Shown piece after piece: positions 5,611-22,249 of a stretch of DNA of 22,354 nt (the first letter of the stretch is position 1; each line of letters starts with the position of its first letter). The translations under genes were made by a program, and so were the position numbers. Source of the stretch: a virus; IMG/VR virus record IMGVR_UViG_3300008448_000730, positions 1-22,354 of that record; one strand, given 5' to 3'. The notes beneath the pieces were generated by a model. It was not told where the DNA came from. It searched no databases and saw nothing but the letters and a program-made list of their open reading frames with translations.

Positions 5611-6762
5611 ATGTCTGAATTTATCAAGGGTCAGGCAGAAGTTCGCAACAACCTAGTTGCCCAGATGCGTGAGGTCATTGACCTCGCTGAGTCTGAGAAG
5701 CGTGGACTAACTGCTGAAGACCTACAAAAGATTGACCGCATCGAGGCTGACATTGCACAGCGTGATGCTGCTATTGCTACCGCAGAGAAGGTTGCACAGC
5801 GTTCGGCTGAGGCTGCTGCTGCTGCTGGCTCATTTGCACCAGAGGTCGCACCGACTTCTTCTGACGCAGATGTTTTGCGTTCGATTGCTCGTGGCGAACT
5901 TCGCTCATACGAGTTCAACCGTGAAACCCGTTCACCGCTAGTTCCATCTAGCAACACCGTTCCAACTTCGTTCTATGACCAAGTTTTCCAGATTGCGACC
6001 CTTGTTGGCCCAATGCTTCAGACTTCTGAGGTATTCAACACCGCATCAGGTGAGAACCTAGTCATCCCAACCGTTACTGCACTAAGCACTGCTGGTTCAG
6101 TTGCTGCTGCTGGAACTGTTGCAGAGTCAAACCCGACCTTCTCAAGCATCACTCTTGGTGCAATCAAGTATGGCGCAATCGTCAACTTGGCAAACGAGTT
6201 GGTTGCTGACGCTGGCTTCGACATCACTGGTTACATTGCACAGCAACTAGGTACTTCGCTTGGTGTGCAGACTAACACTGCACTAACCGACAAGTTGGTT
6301 TCTGCTGCTGGTTCAGTTGTTACTGGTGGAACTGGTGTTTCTGGTGCTGCTACTTACGAGAACTTGATTGACCTCGTTTACGGCATCGCTGATGGCGCTC
6401 GTGTTCTTCCGGGACTTGGCTTCATGATGGCTAAGTCTGGTATTGCCGCTGCTCGTAAGTTGAAGGATGGTTCAGGTGCTTACATCTGGACTGACTCTGC
6501 TGTTGCTGGTCAGCCAGCATCGTTGCTTGGTTACTCGGTTTACGAGAACCCTGCAATTCCTGCTGTTGCTGTTGGTGCGAAGTCGGTTCTATTCGGACAC
6601 CTTCCATCATTCAAGGCTCGTGTTGCTGGTGGCGTTCAGGTTGCAACTTCAACCGATTTCGCTTTCAACACAGATGTTACGGCATATAGAGGTCTGATTA
6701 GAGTTGACGGTGGATTGACACACGCCAGCCACATCGGCTTCTTCAAGGGTGGCGCAAGTTAA
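5611..6762 (+). CDS. Major capsid protein (HK97 fold)
   Basis: Shell-forming protein, made as a 383-residue precursor from ATG 5611. Residues 1-75 form a charged coiled-coil delta/scaffold domain (RNNLVAQMREVIDLAESEK...) ending in an Ala-rich run. The stretch at about 86-125 (DADVLRSIARGELRSYEF...VPTSFYDQVF) is typical of the junction between the delta domain and the mature capsid, where the protease would cut; the exact site is not determined. The rest has the N-arm/E-loop and P- and A-domain character of HK97-fold capsids, such as SSITLGAIKYGAIVNLANEL and the C-terminal LIRVDGGLTHASHIGFF. The frame is open from 5497, but ATG 5611 has the ribosome-binding site and the correct delta-domain start. 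Codon choice differs from neighbouring genes (more GCA, CTA, AAC, ATC), as expected for very high expression. Terminators flank the gene on both sides. Confidence 0.93.
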   Translation: MSEFIKGQAEVRNNLVAQMREVIDLAESEKRGLTAEDLQKIDRIEADIAQRDAAIATAEKVAQRSAEAAAAAGSFAPEVAPTSSDADVLRSIARGELRSYEFNRETRSPLVPSSNTVPTSFYDQVFQIATLVGPMLQTSEVFNTASGENLVIPTVTALSTAGSVAAAGTVAESNPTFSSITLGAIKYGAIVNLANELVADAGFDITGYIAQQLGTSLGVQTNTALTDKLVSAAGSVVTGGTGVSGAATYENLIDLVYGIADGARVLPGLGFMMAKSGIAAARKLKDGSGAYIWTDSAVAGQPASLLGYSVYENPAIPAVAVGAKSVLFGHLPSFKARVAGGVQVATSTDFAFNTDVTAYRGLIRVDGGLTHASHIGFFKGGAS

Positions 6763-6783: not shown

Positions 6784-6823
6784 GAACACCCCTCGTATGC
6801 GTAGATACGGGGGGTGTTCTTTT
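6784..6823 (+). terminator. Intrinsic terminator after the capsid gene
   Basis: A 15-bp stem, 6784-6798 pairing with 6805-6819 (GAACACCCCTCGTAT / ATACGGGGGGTGTTC, one T-G wobble), a 6-base loop GCGTAG, then TTTT. It isolates the capsid gene from the sugar cassette. Confidence 0.92.
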
Positions 6824-6825
6824 AC

Positions 6826-6831
6826 TATGAT
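6826..6831 (+). promoter_or_regulatory. Candidate -10 box TATGAT for the sugar cassette
   Basis: TATGAT matches five of six consensus positions. It starts two bases after the terminator's T tract. A transcript starting about 6838 would have a ~20-base leader containing GAAAGG (6848-6853) and the ATG at 6859. The -35 position falls in the terminator hairpin and shows no consensus. Confidence 0.4.
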
Positions 6832-6858: not shown

Positions 6859-8037
6859 ATGCTAAAGGGAACAATCACTTGGTTTAGCAACTCGCCCACA
6901 GCACCTACTGGCTATGGTGTTCAGTCGCAACAGGTTTTGAGTCGCATGGTTCGTGATGGCCTTGATGTCGCAATTCAGTCGAACTATGGGCGTGAGGGTG
7001 TTAATGGCACTTGGGATTCTGGTCACGGTCTTGTGCCTGAATATGCTCGTGGCGCTGATGCATATTCGCAGGATGTTACTGCCATCAATCACCTGAATCA
7101 CAAGGCTAAGGTTGAGAAAGAAAAAGGCAAGCAAGCCGACTTGTTGATGACTTTGTATGATGTTTGGATTTTAAAGAAGGACAAATACAAGGACATCCCG
7201 ATTGCTTCGTGGACTCCGATTGACCACAACCCGATACCGCCTTTGGTTATGCAGTGGTTGAGCAATCCTAACGTCACACCTATTGCCATGTCTAAGTGGG
7301 GTCAGCGCCAGATTGAGGCTGCGGGTATTGAGTCGCTTTACATTCCTCACGCTGTTGATGACGTGTTTAAACCTACGCAGATGATTGAGGGCAAGACTGC
7401 TCGTGAGTTTATGGGCATCCGTGATGACCAGTTTGTTGTGGGCATGAACTTTGCTAACAAGTCTTCTGGTGCTATTCACCGCAAGGCAGTTGGCGAGGCT
7501 TTGTTGGCTTTTGGTATTTTTGTGAAAAGACACCCTGACGCTTTGTTGTATTTACACACCGATATGTTCGGCGCTTACGGTTGGCGTTTGGCCGACTTGC
7601 TGACTTCGTGTGGTGTGCCTGCTGAAAACGTTTTGTTCTGCGACCAGTTGCAGTATCGTTACGGCTATCCGCAGGAAGTGTTGGCTGCTCTTTATACCGC
7701 TATGAATGTGTATTTGGGCGTGTCTTATGGCGAGGGTTTTGGTGTTGGCACGATTGAGGCACAAGCCTGTGGTGTGCCTGTAATTGTTTCTGACATTTGT
7801 GCAAGCACAGAACTTGTTGGCGATGGTTGGTTGGTTGAGTGTCAGCCGTTGTGGGATGAGTCTCAGAAGTCTTGGTTTAGCATCCCTAACATTCCGCAAA
7901 TTGTTGAGGCCTTGATGCAGGCTTATGAGCGTGGTCAGGGCGTGTCTGAGAAGGCGTTGGCGTTTGCTGAGGGTTACCGGGCTGAGAAGGTTTGGCAAGA
8001 TTACTGGATTCCTACTTTGGGCAAGTTGCTTAAATGA
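6859..8037 (+). CDS. GT4-like glycosyltransferase (GT-B fold)
   Basis: Predicted retaining glycosyltransferase that moves a sugar from a nucleotide donor to an unknown acceptor. The 392-residue protein has an N-terminal acceptor domain starting with a TAPTGYGVQS loop (14-23) and a C-terminal donor domain with R208/K209 and the EX7E signature, E292 and E300 in GEGFGVGTIE, followed by GVPVIVSD (305-312). These are hallmarks of the Glycos_transf_1 family. It has no signal peptide or membrane segment, so it is cytoplasmic. It is the first gene of a three-gene unit between capsid and connector and overlaps the next gene by ATGA. GAAAGG at 6848-6853 is the ribosome-binding site. Possible acceptors are capsid or tail protein, modified phage DNA bases or host wall polymers; the sequence does not decide. 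Family call is secure, substrate unknown. Confidence 0.88.
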   Translation: MLKGTITWFSNSPTAPTGYGVQSQQVLSRMVRDGLDVAIQSNYGREGVNGTWDSGHGLVPEYARGADAYSQDVTAINHLNHKAKVEKEKGKQADLLMTLYDVWILKKDKYKDIPIASWTPIDHNPIPPLVMQWLSNPNVTPIAMSKWGQRQIEAAGIESLYIPHAVDDVFKPTQMIEGKTAREFMGIRDDQFVVGMNFANKSSGAIHRKAVGEALLAFGIFVKRHPDALLYLHTDMFGAYGWRLADLLTSCGVPAENVLFCDQLQYRYGYPQEVLAALYTAMNVYLGVSYGEGFGVGTIEAQACGVPVIVSDICASTELVGDGWLVECQPLWDESQKSWFSIPNIPQIVEALMQAYERGQGVSEKALAFAEGYRAEKVWQDYWIPTLGKLLK

Positions 8038-8681
8038 TTCCAGTTCTGGGCTTTGCGACCCTGAAACGTTTTGACCTTGCTGACAGGTTGCTTGCCAGCA
8101 TTGATTACCCTGTTGAAAATCTGGTCATCGTTGACAACTCTGGTCAGGCTTCATGGAATCCAGTCAAGCCCGACTGGGTGGTGAATATGTGGGTTATCCG
8201 TGTGCCTTACGGTTTGGGGCTTGTTGGCGCTTGGAATCTGATTATCAAATCAACACCGTATGCCCCGTATTGGTTGCTGGTGAATGATGACTGCTGGTTC
8301 GCCCCTGAGACGCTCTCTAAGGCCGCACAAGGCGTTTTGACGGATGCCGTGAACTTCTTTGACTGTGTACCTCACTGGTCTGCGGTAGCCTTTGGTGAGG
8401 GCTGTATAGAGAAGGTGGGTTTGTATGATGAACGATTTTATCCTCTTTATTTTGACGATAACGATTTGGAACGCCGTATTGATTTCTGTAATGTTCCGAA
8501 GAACTTTATTGATGCGAAAGTTCATCACGACAATTCGTCAACGCTCAACAGTGGTTTTCAGGCGCAAAATTCTCGCACCTATCAGGCGAATCACAGACTC
8601 TTTGAGGAGAAGGTGGCACAAGGCGATTATTCAGAGGGCGCTTGGTCGTTGTCGGTGCGTAGGGCTAACCGATGGGATTGA
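8034..8681 (+). CDS. GT-A (GT2-like) glycosyltransferase
   Basis: A compact 215-residue protein that looks like an inverting GT-A glycosyltransferase. It starts with PVLGFATLKR and has the nucleotide-binding beta strand NLVIVDNSG (29-37), a YGLGLVGAWNLII segment (59-71), the DXD-like metal-site region LLVNDDCWF (81-89), and a YFDDNDLERR acceptor/catalytic motif (139-148), the counterpart of the ED-x-D-x-x-R motif in GT2 enzymes; H164-H165 follow. It is shorter than many GT2 enzymes and has no membrane helix, so it should be soluble. It overlaps the GT4 gene (ATGA) and the cytidylyltransferase gene (10 bases), implying coupled synthesis and a shared pathway. Donor sugar and acceptor are unknown. 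Confidence 0.8.
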   Translation: MIPVLGFATLKRFDLADRLLASIDYPVENLVIVDNSGQASWNPVKPDWVVNMWVIRVPYGLGLVGAWNLIIKSTPYAPYWLLVNDDCWFAPETLSKAAQGVLTDAVNFFDCVPHWSAVAFGEGCIEKVGLYDERFYPLYFDDNDLERRIDFCNVPKNFIDAKVHHDNSSTLNSGFQAQNSRTYQANHRLFEEKVAQGDYSEGAWSLSVRRANRWD

Positions 8682-9109
8682 GGGTTTACACAGGTGGAAC
8701 GTTCGACTTGTTTCACGCAGGCCACGTCAGGTTGTTGGCTCGGTGCGCCGAGTTGGGTGCTGTGACTGTTGCCCTGAACACGGATGAGTTCATAGCCGAA
8801 TACAAGGGCAAGTCGCCTGTGATGAGTTTTGATGAGCGCCGTGAGGTTCTTGAGGCTTGCAGGTTCGTTGATGATGTTGTGGCGAACATTGGTGGTGCGG
8901 ATTCTCGACCAAGCATTGAGATGGTGAAACCTGATTTGGTTGTAATCGGTTCGGACTGGGCTAAGAAAGATTACTACAAGCAGATGCAATTCGACCAAGA
9001 TTGGTTAGACCAGCGAGGTATTGGTCTTTGCTACATTCCTTACACGTCAGGTATCAGCACCACTGACATAAAAGCCCGTATGCGGTTTAGCGGTAGAATA
9101 GACTCATAG
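8672..9109 (+). CDS. TagD-like cytidylyltransferase
   Basis: Nucleotidyltransferase that would join CTP to a polyol or sugar phosphate (glycerol-3-phosphate in TagD) to give a CDP-linked donor. The 145-residue chain begins MGLRVYTGGTFDLFHAGH, containing the HxGH signature at 15-18. It continues with LNTDEF, SFDERREVLEACRFVDDVV (52-70), the VIGSDW strand (91-96) and the ISTTDIKAR motif (128-136); together these define the cytidylyltransferase superfamily. Glycerol-3-phosphate is the closest-looking substrate, but ethanolamine-phosphate or heptose-type substrates are possible. It is co-translated with two glycosyltransferases, so it probably makes an activated donor or primer for them. Its last codons contain the TAGAAT hexamer used as a candidate promoter for the connector gene. 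Confidence 0.85.
   Translation: MGLRVYTGGTFDLFHAGHVRLLARCAELGAVTVALNTDEFIAEYKGKSPVMSFDERREVLEACRFVDDVVANIGGADSRPSIEMVKPDLVVIGSDWAKKDYYKQMQFDQDWLDQRGIGLCYIPYTSGISTTDIKARMRFSGRIDS
9094..9099 (+). promoter_or_regulatory. Candidate -10 box TAGAAT for the connector/tail genes
   Basis: CGGTAGAATAGAC lies in the end of the cytidylyltransferase gene, with the rare codons AGA and ATA. A start near 9106 would leave an 18-base leader carrying AGGAG (9114-9118) before the TTG at 9124. No -35 consensus is visible. Confidence 0.38.
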
Positions 9110-9123: not shown

Positions 9124-9735
9124 TTGGCTATTTCAAATGGTTACTGCACTTTGGCTGAGGTCAAGGCTGCTTTGCGTATCCCAAATGCGGATACTGTTGA
9201 CGACACCATCCTTGAGGGCAACGTTGAGGCTGCTTCTCGCCTGATTGATGGTTACACGATGCGTTCGTTCTACAACGCTGGAACCGCTGTGCGCTACTTC
9301 GCACCAGATAACGCTATTTACTTGCCGATTGATGACGCTATCAGCATCAGTGAGGTTGCAACTTCTAGCGACATTGACACTACCTATGACGTGATTTGGG
9401 CTTCTACCGACTATCAGAAAGAGCCATTAAATGGTCGTGTTGATGGTTTAGGTGGTTGGCCTACGACTGGTATTCGTGCGATTGACAACTACGACTTTTA
9501 TGTGAACAACGGTCAGGCTTTGGCTCGTGTGACTGGTGTGTGGGGTTGGTCTGCTGTTCCTATCGCCATCAAGCAGGCAACGATTATTCAGGCAAGCCGT
9601 ATCTTCAAGCGTCTCGATTCGCCGTTGGGGGTTTTGAGTTCACCAGACATGGGCTTTATCCGTGTCGGTCACAAACTTGACCCTGACGTGCAGATGCTTG
9701 TCAGTTCTTACCGTTTGATGAGAAATCTAGCATGA
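9124..9735 (+). CDS. Head-tail connector (HK97 gp6-like adaptor)
   Basis: A 203-residue protein predicted to form the ring below the portal that links head and tail. The N-terminus GYCTLAEVKAALRIPNADTVDDTILEGNVEAASRLIDGYTMRSF is the helical head-tail connector pattern, here in pieces at about residues 6-48. A beta-rich middle follows (YFAPDNAIYLPIDDAISISEV), then a C-terminal helix (IAIKQATIIQASRIFKRLDSPLG). The TTG start is supported by AGGAG at 9114 and by the absence of any usable ATG. The ATGA overlap with the next gene places it in the connector/tail transcript. Family assigned by pattern and position. Confidence 0.82.
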   Translation: MAISNGYCTLAEVKAALRIPNADTVDDTILEGNVEAASRLIDGYTMRSFYNAGTAVRYFAPDNAIYLPIDDAISISEVATSSDIDTTYDVIWASTDYQKEPLNGRVDGLGGWPTTGIRAIDNYDFYVNNGQALARVTGVWGWSAVPIAIKQATIIQASRIFKRLDSPLGVLSSPDMGFIRVGHKLDPDVQMLVSSYRLMRNLA

Positions 9736-19052: not shown

Positions 19053-19331
19053 TTACGCTGATTTGTTGTTTTGGAAGAAGTCAATTCCGCCGTAGATGCC
19101 GTATTGGGCGTTGGATAGTATCCCAAATTCTCGGCATTGTTGTTTGAGTGGGCAGTCGTCACAGATGGCTTTGGCTACTTTGCGTGCCATGCGTTGCATT
19201 TCTTGTGATTCGTAGTCTTCTGGGTAGAAAAGTTCTGGGTTTTCTTCACAGGGTGTGCCACCGTTATCAGATTGTAATTCTAATAGTCGAAATCTTGCGT
19301 TTTCTATTAGTTTTTGTCGGCGGTCTGTCAT
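19053..19331 (-). CDS. WhiB-family iron-sulfur transcription factor
   Basis: Predicted [4Fe-4S] regulator that would bind the host main sigma factor and redirect transcription. The 92-residue protein has the four cysteines of the family, C28, C57, C60 and C66 (C-x28-C-x2-C-x5-C), followed by GIYGG at 78-82, the turn that replaces the classic GVWGG. Upstream of the first Cys is a helix (QKLIENARFRLLELQ). It is the only - strand gene, convergent with the lysis genes and divergent from the exonuclease gene. No Shine-Dalgarno sequence precedes its ATG; a TAAGAT hexamer ends exactly six bases before it, which suggests a leaderless message. Such phage WhiB proteins can repress host WhiB genes and block superinfection (known for mycobacteriophage TM4); here this is inference. 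Confidence 0.88.
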   Translation of the reverse strand: MTDRRQKLIENARFRLLELQSDNGGTPCEENPELFYPEDYESQEMQRMARKVAKAICDDCPLKQQCREFGILSNAQYGIYGGIDFFQNNKSA

Positions 19332-21619: not shown

Positions 21620-22249
21620 ATGCTCGATGAGAAGTTCTACATAGAACGCATCACGAATCAAATGGCAATGGAAGTTGTTGTTGCTAATCACTATTTGCAT
21701 CGCAGAGCGCCGTGTAGTTGGGCGTTTGGGATGTTTGACAAATCCAATCATCAGTTGGTTGGTGTTGTGGTTTATGGTGTTTCTGCGTCTTCGACTTTGT
21801 TGCGAGGTATTTGTGGTGATGATGAGGCAAAGAATGTTTACGAGTTGACTCGTTTGTGGATTGACGATGATGTGCCTAAGAATGGCGAGTCTTGGCTGAT
21901 TGCTAACACGATGGGTAAGACGGACAGGGAAATCATTGTCAGTTATGCTGACAGTTCACAGAACCATGTGGGTGTGGTTTATCAGGCTGCGAACTTTATT
22001 TACACGGGTTTGTCGTCTAAGTTCAAAGACCCGAAGGTTCGTGGGTTAGAGCATCAGCATCACGCTACTTATGCAAATGGTATGACCAACAAAGAGGTTG
22101 TCGAGAAGTTTGGTGACCGTGTGTATTTTGTCGAAAGACCACGCAAGCACAGGTATGTTTATTTTGCAACTTCTAAGAGTCGGCGTAAGGTTTTGATGGG
22201 TAAGTTGCGTTATCCTGTTTTGCCGTATCCGAAAGCAGCAAGTGAATAA
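21620..22249 (+). CDS. Mom-like DNA-modification protein (GNAT-type fold)
   Basis: A 209-residue protein resembling the Mom family, whose phage Mu member converts adenine to N6-(1-acetamido)adenine and shields DNA from restriction. Visible family features are NHYLHRRAPCSWAFG (23-37), LVGVVVYGVSAS (47-57), ELTRLWI (75-81), SYADSSQNHVGVVYQAANF (109-127, with SYAD at 108-111) and YTGLSS (128-133), then a basic C-terminus with RYPVLPYPK (197-205). The length is close to other Mom proteins. Ribosome-binding site AAAGGGAAAA lies at about 21609-21618. No Com-type translation activator is seen beside it. The reaction and target base are not proven here; some homologues in actinophages are annotated only as GNAT-like. 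A truncated HNH gene overlaps its stop. Confidence 0.8.
   Translation: MLDEKFYIERITNQMAMEVVVANHYLHRRAPCSWAFGMFDKSNHQLVGVVVYGVSASSTLLRGICGDDEAKNVYELTRLWIDDDVPKNGESWLIANTMGKTDREIIVSYADSSQNHVGVVYQAANFIYTGLSSKFKDPKVRGLEHQHHATYANGMTNKEVVEKFGDRVYFVERPRKHRYVYFATSKSRRKVLMGKLRYPVLPYPKAASE

Follow-up and report, generated by a model that had tools for sequence, protein, structure and literature searches.

A modular slot for glycan-type enzymes between the capsid and neck genes of aquatic actinophages

The window analysed here is the whole of the 22,354-base IMG/VR virus record IMGVR_UViG_3300008448_000730. Between the genes for its major capsid protein (MCP) and its neck protein lies a cassette of three overlapping genes, encoding two glycosyltransferases (GTs), called GT4 and GT2, and a cytidylyltransferase-like nucleotidyltransferase (CT). 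Comparison with relatives reveals that the locus is a standing slot whose content is exchanged and now and then lost, rather than a one-off insertion. With moderate confidence, we interpret it as a modular locus for glycosylation by the phage, whose most likely target is the capsid encoded just upstream. An earlier sequence-only reading of this DNA had also proposed a glycan-type module within the virion block, which is borne out, and had offered capsid decoration as one idea, which is the best single explanation. The slot and its borders are made up as follows.

5611..6762, forward strand: MCP, HK97 fold family PF05065, probable start at 5611; the proposed acceptor
6784..6819, forward strand: intrinsic-terminator-like hairpin of 15 pairs plus T tract, loop GCGUAG, 3′ of MCP
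6826..6831, forward strand: -10-like TATGAT before the cassette, candidate promoter; extended TANNNT form in relatives
6859..8037, forward strand: GT4, retaining-type GT-B glycosyltransferase, 392 aa, phrog_2170, EX7E = E292/E300 (Pfam, PHROG and model)
8034..8681, forward strand: GT2-like GT-A glycosyltransferase, 215 aa, phrog_29879, NDD at 84-86, DDND at 141-144
8672..9109, forward strand: CT, cytidylyltransferase-like nucleotidyltransferase, 145 aa, PF01467, phrog_7878, with HAGH, GSDW and YTSGISTT
9094..9099, forward strand: -10-like TAGAAT within the 3′ end of CT, before the neck gene; TARRMT in relatives
9124..9735, forward strand: neck protein/head-tail adaptor, PF05135, phrog_442; right border of the slot

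Loci were gathered by similarity to GT4, GT2, CT, MCP or neck, each separately. Among nonredundant IMG/VR loci chosen by MCP only or neck only and spanning both, GT4 was found in between, directly after MCP, in 61/61, GT2 in 48/61 and the ordered series GT4-GT2-CT in 37/61. A second scan with MCP again placed GT4 in the slot in every case (51/51). A third scan, started from the capsid of the Pontimonas phage phiPsal1, found GT4 in 33 of 42 loci. The nine loci without it, two of them with GT2 only, overturned a picture in which GT4 was universal and the three genes were strictly nested. CT was never seen without GT2 in the loci surveyed, and of the three genes it is the one most readily dispensed with. 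Loci lacking GT4 group in the MCP tree as two separate clades within GT4-positive ones, which suggests that GT4 was lost at least twice, though the starred branches alone force only one change. Exchange appears to proceed gene by gene; at locus L010 a near MCP and GT2 accompany a diverged GT4.

The further genes lying between MCP and neck were grouped into clusters and then scanned against families. They are overwhelmingly glycan enzymes, and include GT17 (8 loci), relatives of GT2, extra copies of GT4, an NAD-dependent epimerase and a UDP-glucose/GDP-mannose dehydrogenase, as well as SAM methyltransferases, a radical SAM/SPASM protein and a weak MptE-like match. The nucleotide-sugar epimerase genes lie in the slots of L065 and L279, suggesting that some members bring their own sugar-modifying enzyme. 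Apparently mobile HNH endonuclease genes were also seen directly 3′ of MCP on the reverse strand in 13 loci (including L115:2108-2758 and L017:4752-5300), and L182 carries a reverse-strand PNP_UDP_1 nucleoside phosphorylase gene in the slot (1844-2455).

The synteny check proposed by the sequence-only reading finds the block at one and the same position in almost every close relative, neither absent nor scattered. That reading called the block inserted, a term which applies only relative to the distant capsid relatives Streptomyces phage TG1 and Rhizobium phage RHph_Y3_1, where the slot holds no GT genes; within the group the slot is fixed. The only close cultured record is phiPsal1 (MG835450), in which, as in the window, GT4 lies directly between homologous MCP and neck genes. 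Its order is MCP-GT4-methyltransferase-GT2-neck, and identities to the window are 47% for MCP, 46% for GT4 and 40% for GT2. However, phiPsal1 lacks CT and has the methyltransferase, on the reverse strand, between its GTs. This locus was annotated, without interpretation, in the phiPsal1 paper (PMC6106888). A GT4 homologue (39%, hhalign probability 100) also follows MCP in Microcystis phage Mae-JY09 (PP395641), with an unassigned 210-aa ORF and then a PF01370 epimerase downstream. That phage differs in its cyanobacterial host, in its other capsid/head genes and in lacking CT, and no homology to GT2 could be detected for its 210-aa ORF.

The three open reading frames of the cassette lie where the sequence-only reading had placed them, intact and on the forward strand. 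GT4 and GT2 overlap by ATGA at 8034-8037 and GT2 and CT by 10 bases at 8672-8681, and the reading-frame overlap is kept among relatives for both pairs (69/85 and 73/74, respectively). Values of dN/dS against close relatives, mostly 0.02-0.26 for the cassette genes, indicate purifying selection. Moreover, no 19-residue hydrophobic (transmembrane-like) segment was found in 232 GT4, 228 GT2 or 200 CT proteins. All three proteins thus appear soluble, which fits a cytosolic protein acceptor.

GT4 is the core enzyme of the slot. It scores above the cut-offs for PF00534/PF13692, its AlphaFold model is a confident GT-B fold (pLDDT 92), and the catalytic glutamates of the EX7E motif, recognised at 292/300 from the sequence alone, are kept in nonredundant relatives (E292 in 90/93, E300 in 93/93), making it a GT4 glycosyltransferase by domain, fold and motif. 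The nearest solved structure is chlorovirus B736L (PDB 3oy2; profile 1.6e-11; Foldseek E 2e-17, TM 0.74). This GT4-type protein comes from a eukaryotic virus (PBCV-1/NY2A) with an unrelated capsid, and a literature search found no functional data for it.

The second enzyme had been called a GT-A enzyme by its acidic motifs, and this call stood. GT2 falls just below the threshold of PF00535 (E=2.4e-4, 21.5 bits vs a gathering score of 23.3), but it matches phrog_29879 at 1e-32, its AlphaFold model (pLDDT 93) has a GT-A fold with a metal-binding DxD-like motif, and D86, D142 and H165 are invariant in 86/86 relatives. The top structural matches of the model were polypeptide GalNAc-transferase 2 (Z 16.8) and WrtF (Z 16.4). 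The former was dropped as a sign of protein O-glycosylation because it ties with polysaccharide GTs.

CT belongs to the fold family of PF01467 (E=4e-16, above the cut-off) and shares HxGH and G(D/S)DW with TagD/GCT (1coz, 2b7l) and the Fom1 CyTase (5x3d). Both histidines of HxGH (H15, H18), D95 and W96 are invariant in 75/75 CTs. The TagD-like label of the sequence-only reading holds as far as this family and motif; a true TagD/GCT was rejected, with 82.0 bits against the curated TIGR01518 cut-off of 165.4, as was a heptose-1-phosphate adenylyltransferase (RfaE domain II/HldC; 75.6 bits vs 181.5 for TIGR02199). Moreover, the arginine of the TagD signature RTxGISTT, present in 1coz, is replaced by tyrosine in 75/75 CTs. 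The resulting YTxGIS(S/T)T agrees with YTPGISST of Fom1, with which CT shares IPYTxGIS(T/S)T in an alignment needing only a two-residue gap. Fom1 activates 2-hydroxyethylphosphonate (PMC6697681), and the solved relatives of CT are headed by CTP enzymes (ethanolamine-phosphate CT, GCT and the Fom1 CyTase). Judged by these motifs and relatives, CT is most likely an enzyme that uses CTP to activate a small phospho- or phosphono-alcohol.

Seven cellular-record loci with CT homologues were checked for substrate clues. As such clues they were set aside, since L306, L310 and L311 look like phage contigs in bins of metagenome-assembled genomes (MAGs), and L307 probably does too. The first three are GTDB MAG contigs with capsid or tail-type genes near CT, pointing to viral contamination or proviruses in the bins. 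A family of 170-180 aa proteins, lacking any Pfam, PHROG or PDB match, occurs in 15 slot loci, all with CT, and adjoins CT in three phage-like contigs that had been placed in Epsilonproteobacteria, Pacebacteria and Micrarchaeota bins. In the loci seen it is always beside CT or in CT's cassette; examples are the following.

L124:1945-2481: 170-180 aa family
L306:8411-8944: 170-180 aa family
L310:2384-2917: 170-180 aa family
L311:2178-2720: 170-180 aa family

The family is a candidate partner enzyme (transferase) for CT where present; the window does not have it. Neither TagF-type PF04464 nor LicD PF04991, which cover CDP-glycerol, CDP-ribitol and choline-P transferases, was found among the phage genes of 29 long relatives (0/29 each, with controls matched), so that a CDP-polyol pathway would be incomplete on the phage side. 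With CT the most dispensable gene and its substrate not assignable, the complete activated-donor plus transfer pathway envisaged from the sequence alone is not upheld. CT homologues of 53-56% identity also overlap an upstream GT-annotated gene in Streptomyces phage Larnav (gp36/gp35) and Arthrobacter phage Mimi (gp177/gp178). These pairs differ in lying away from the capsid gene, and their GT has no detectable homology to GT2. CT therefore accompanies GT-type genes in several unrelated phages.

The terminator reported on the left of the cassette was confirmed as a terminator-like element, with a hairpin at the post-MCP gap in 85/91 relatives; a score attained by 90% of real post-MCP gaps was reached by none of the shuffled ones (0/415). 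Over 45 distinct hairpin sequences, each of the inner 12 pairs occurs as three or more pair types and is broken in no more than two cases, indicating compensatory change in the stem. The loop contains GUAG in 57/77 strong hairpins, and GTAG occurs at 67/90 post-MCP sites vs 11/145 other terminator-like hairpins of the same contigs. Conservation of GUAG(G) in the loop (GCGUAG / UGUAGGUU) in 80+ relatives is unusual for a plain terminator, and the loop may be bound by some factor. No Rfam family reached its gathering threshold anywhere in the window, hairpin included. The hairpin was ruled out as a part of the cassette, since it persists 3′ of MCP where GT4 is absent. Genomes without the cassette keep it, mostly with a UGUAGG loop, and the hairpin thus belongs to the capsid gene.

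Candidate promoters had also been noted on each side of the cassette. A promoter consensus scan of the window alone did not bear this out (4 found vs 2.7 expected, the chance level), but comparison among relatives did. TARRMT lies 5′ of the neck gene in 92/93 loci vs a mean of 15 and a maximum of 25 in shuffles, and an extended -10-like element (GCTATGNT-type) lies 5′ of GT4 in 54/93 relatives vs 11 in shuffles, the weaker of the two. Neither was found ahead of the genes for GT2, CT or the tail tube. Bounded by the post-MCP hairpin and the pre-neck element, the cassette may form its own transcription unit. We infer from this arrangement that the capsid would be produced in excess, with the enzymes, at catalytic levels, and the neck/tail genes transcribed by read-through plus starts of their own. 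The layout resembles that of T7, whose terminator is located 3′ of the capsid gene.

In the proposed scheme the acceptor, enzyme order, donor sugars and CT substrate are all predicted. Late in infection GT4 would start sugar transfer, or perform the invariant step, from a host nucleotide-sugar to an acceptor of the phage, with the capsid protein as the likeliest one. The GT-A enzyme would lengthen the sugar. CT would use CTP to activate a small phosphorylated alcohol or phosphonate as a terminal group, added by the GT-A enzyme or by a host or other transferase. The case for a virion acceptor is circumstantial, and consists of the place of the genes, the soluble enzymes, the mycobacteriophage precedent and the chlorovirus relative of GT4. 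Freeman 2023, as summarised in PMC12363180 and PMC11256854, describes GTs encoded by mycobacteriophages Che8, Corndog and Myrna that glycosylate the phages' capsid or tail-tube proteins. The likeness to Che8 lies in several adjacent, actinophage-encoded GTs (gp108-110), and these systems are a candidate model for the working of the locus. In chloroviruses the capsid protein is glycosylated by cytosolic enzymes of the virus's own (PMC7019647).

The MCP itself offers a further lead. Residues 233-245 form a G/S/T-rich loop (GSVVTGGTGVSG), in which residue 235 is serine or threonine in ~94% of 109 GT4-positive vs 0/9 GT4-negative capsids, and residue 238 in 91% of GT4-positive vs 2/9 GT4-negative ones. 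A more specific version of capsid decoration, which we regard as doubtful, would make the locus a capsid-glycosylation island, with the core GT4 acting on this Ser/Thr-rich loop (MCP 235/238), exchangeable extension modules and a phage-made, CDP-activated non-sugar cap. If this were true, variation in the slot would bring variety to the particle surface, and once GT4 was lost the capsid loop would no longer be tied to its acceptor residue.

Several observations weigh against a capsid acceptor. Two losses underlie the residue-235 pattern, and some GT4-positive capsids depart from it (L067, L069, L074, L079, L424, L455 and L457), so the association is a lead only. The distance correlation of GT4 with MCP (0.63) is not above that of portal with MCP (0.81), and so there is no special signal of coevolution beyond map position; GT4 may sit next to MCP for late expression only. 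Empty slots exist, making the block dispensable, and L430 and L439 carry GT2 without GT4, so that GT2 is not strictly dependent on GT4. The GTs of Che8-type phages lie not in the capsid-neck interval but at the right end of the genome, and have no CT alongside. GT4 and GT2 have no detectable homology to Che8 gp108 and gp110 (hhalign probability <1%), and gp109 gave a weak match only (13% over 45 columns). Finally, phiPsal1 has been reported lost (PMC6106888).

The slot lies in a late block of siphophage type, running TerS, TerL, portal, protease, MCP, the cassette and neck/adaptor. Beyond the neck gene come tail terminator, tail tube, tape measure, an M23-type peptidase, a reverse WhiB gene, a YqaJ/RecE-type exonuclease and Mom. 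The Mom-family DNA-modification gene (21620-22249; PF25680, phrog_1384) occurs in 9/30 records of the group.

19053..19331, reverse strand: WhiB-like transcription factor, PF02467

WhiB is present in the window and in 29/29 long relatives, so the host is likely an actinobacterium; that of phiPsal1 is Pontimonas (Microbacteriaceae). The slot belongs to a large and almost uncultured group of WhiB-bearing phages of aquatic actinobacteria.

Other targets for the enzymes have to be set against the capsid. Sugars added late to a cell-wall or surface glycan of the host could block re-adsorption of progeny or superinfection, as has been proposed for freshwater Nanopelagicales phages (PMC10202952). We take such envelope remodelling seriously, as the main rival to capsid decoration, but think it unlikely. 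A stand-alone PF01467 CT does resemble TagD/GCT, an envelope-polymer enzyme (1coz, 94.6 bits), and swappable glycan content would suit an arms race at the cell surface. However, serotype-converting phages usually encode a membrane protein, flippase or lipid-carrier enzymes. None of these was recognised among the annotated slot proteins, GT4, GT2 and CT lack any hydrophobic segment, TagF and LicD are missing from the 29 relatives, and the genes are placed in the virion block in tight linkage to MCP. The sequence-only reading had named teichoic-type polymers among the targets, a suggestion weakened by the soluble proteins and by the polyrhamnose, rather than teichoic acid, reported for P. salivibrio, the sequenced host of phiPsal1 (PMC6106888). 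An acceptor among the tail or neck proteins, such as the tail tube, is improbable. The cassette does end directly 5′ of the neck gene, and tail-tube glycosylation is reported in mycobacteriophages (PMC12363180), but the residue-235 pattern lies in an MCP loop, and the distances of GT4 correlate better with those of MCP (0.63) and portal (0.59) than with neck (0.41), tail terminator (0.32) or major tail protein (0.32), an ordering that map distance could explain.

Two further explanations involve neither virion proteins nor the envelope. The genes might be accessory 'moron' metabolism with no dedicated acceptor, as the gene-by-gene swapping at L010 and the empty slots would allow. This is more improbable still, as transient cargo would not show such regularity; the genes occupy one slot in nearly all of hundreds of loci, are under purifying selection and keep their overlaps. 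Glycosylation of DNA against host nucleases, another target raised from the sequence alone and suggested as one function of the E7/F5 phage glycosyltransferases (PMC10202952), is the least probable of all. The Mom gene in the window and a Tet/JBP-like gene in one relative speak for it. However, Mom, found in 9/30 records only, does not track the cassette, and thymidylate-synthase-type PF00303 (0/30) and Tet/JBP PF12851 (1/30) are rare to absent in records that are possibly incomplete, other base-modifying routes lying outside the search. DNA-modifying GTs are normally located in early regions, and to our knowledge the known Mom product is no sugar acceptor.

Taken together, the functional kind of the locus is known, while this layout was not found described in the open papers searched. 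The sequence does not justify a teichoic-acid or heptose annotation for nucleotidyltransferases such as CT. If the reading as a glycosylation locus is correct, the slot would give a context to the widespread unassigned 'TagD/HldE-like' nucleotidyltransferases of phages, as partners of GT-A enzymes in glycan building. Moreover, the natural series of gain, loss and swapping makes the acceptor and the role of each enzyme testable via near relatives. Phage-encoded virion glycosylation has so far been demonstrated for a few mycobacteriophages; should this locus glycosylate virions, the trait would be near-standard in a common phage group of aquatic actinobacteria.

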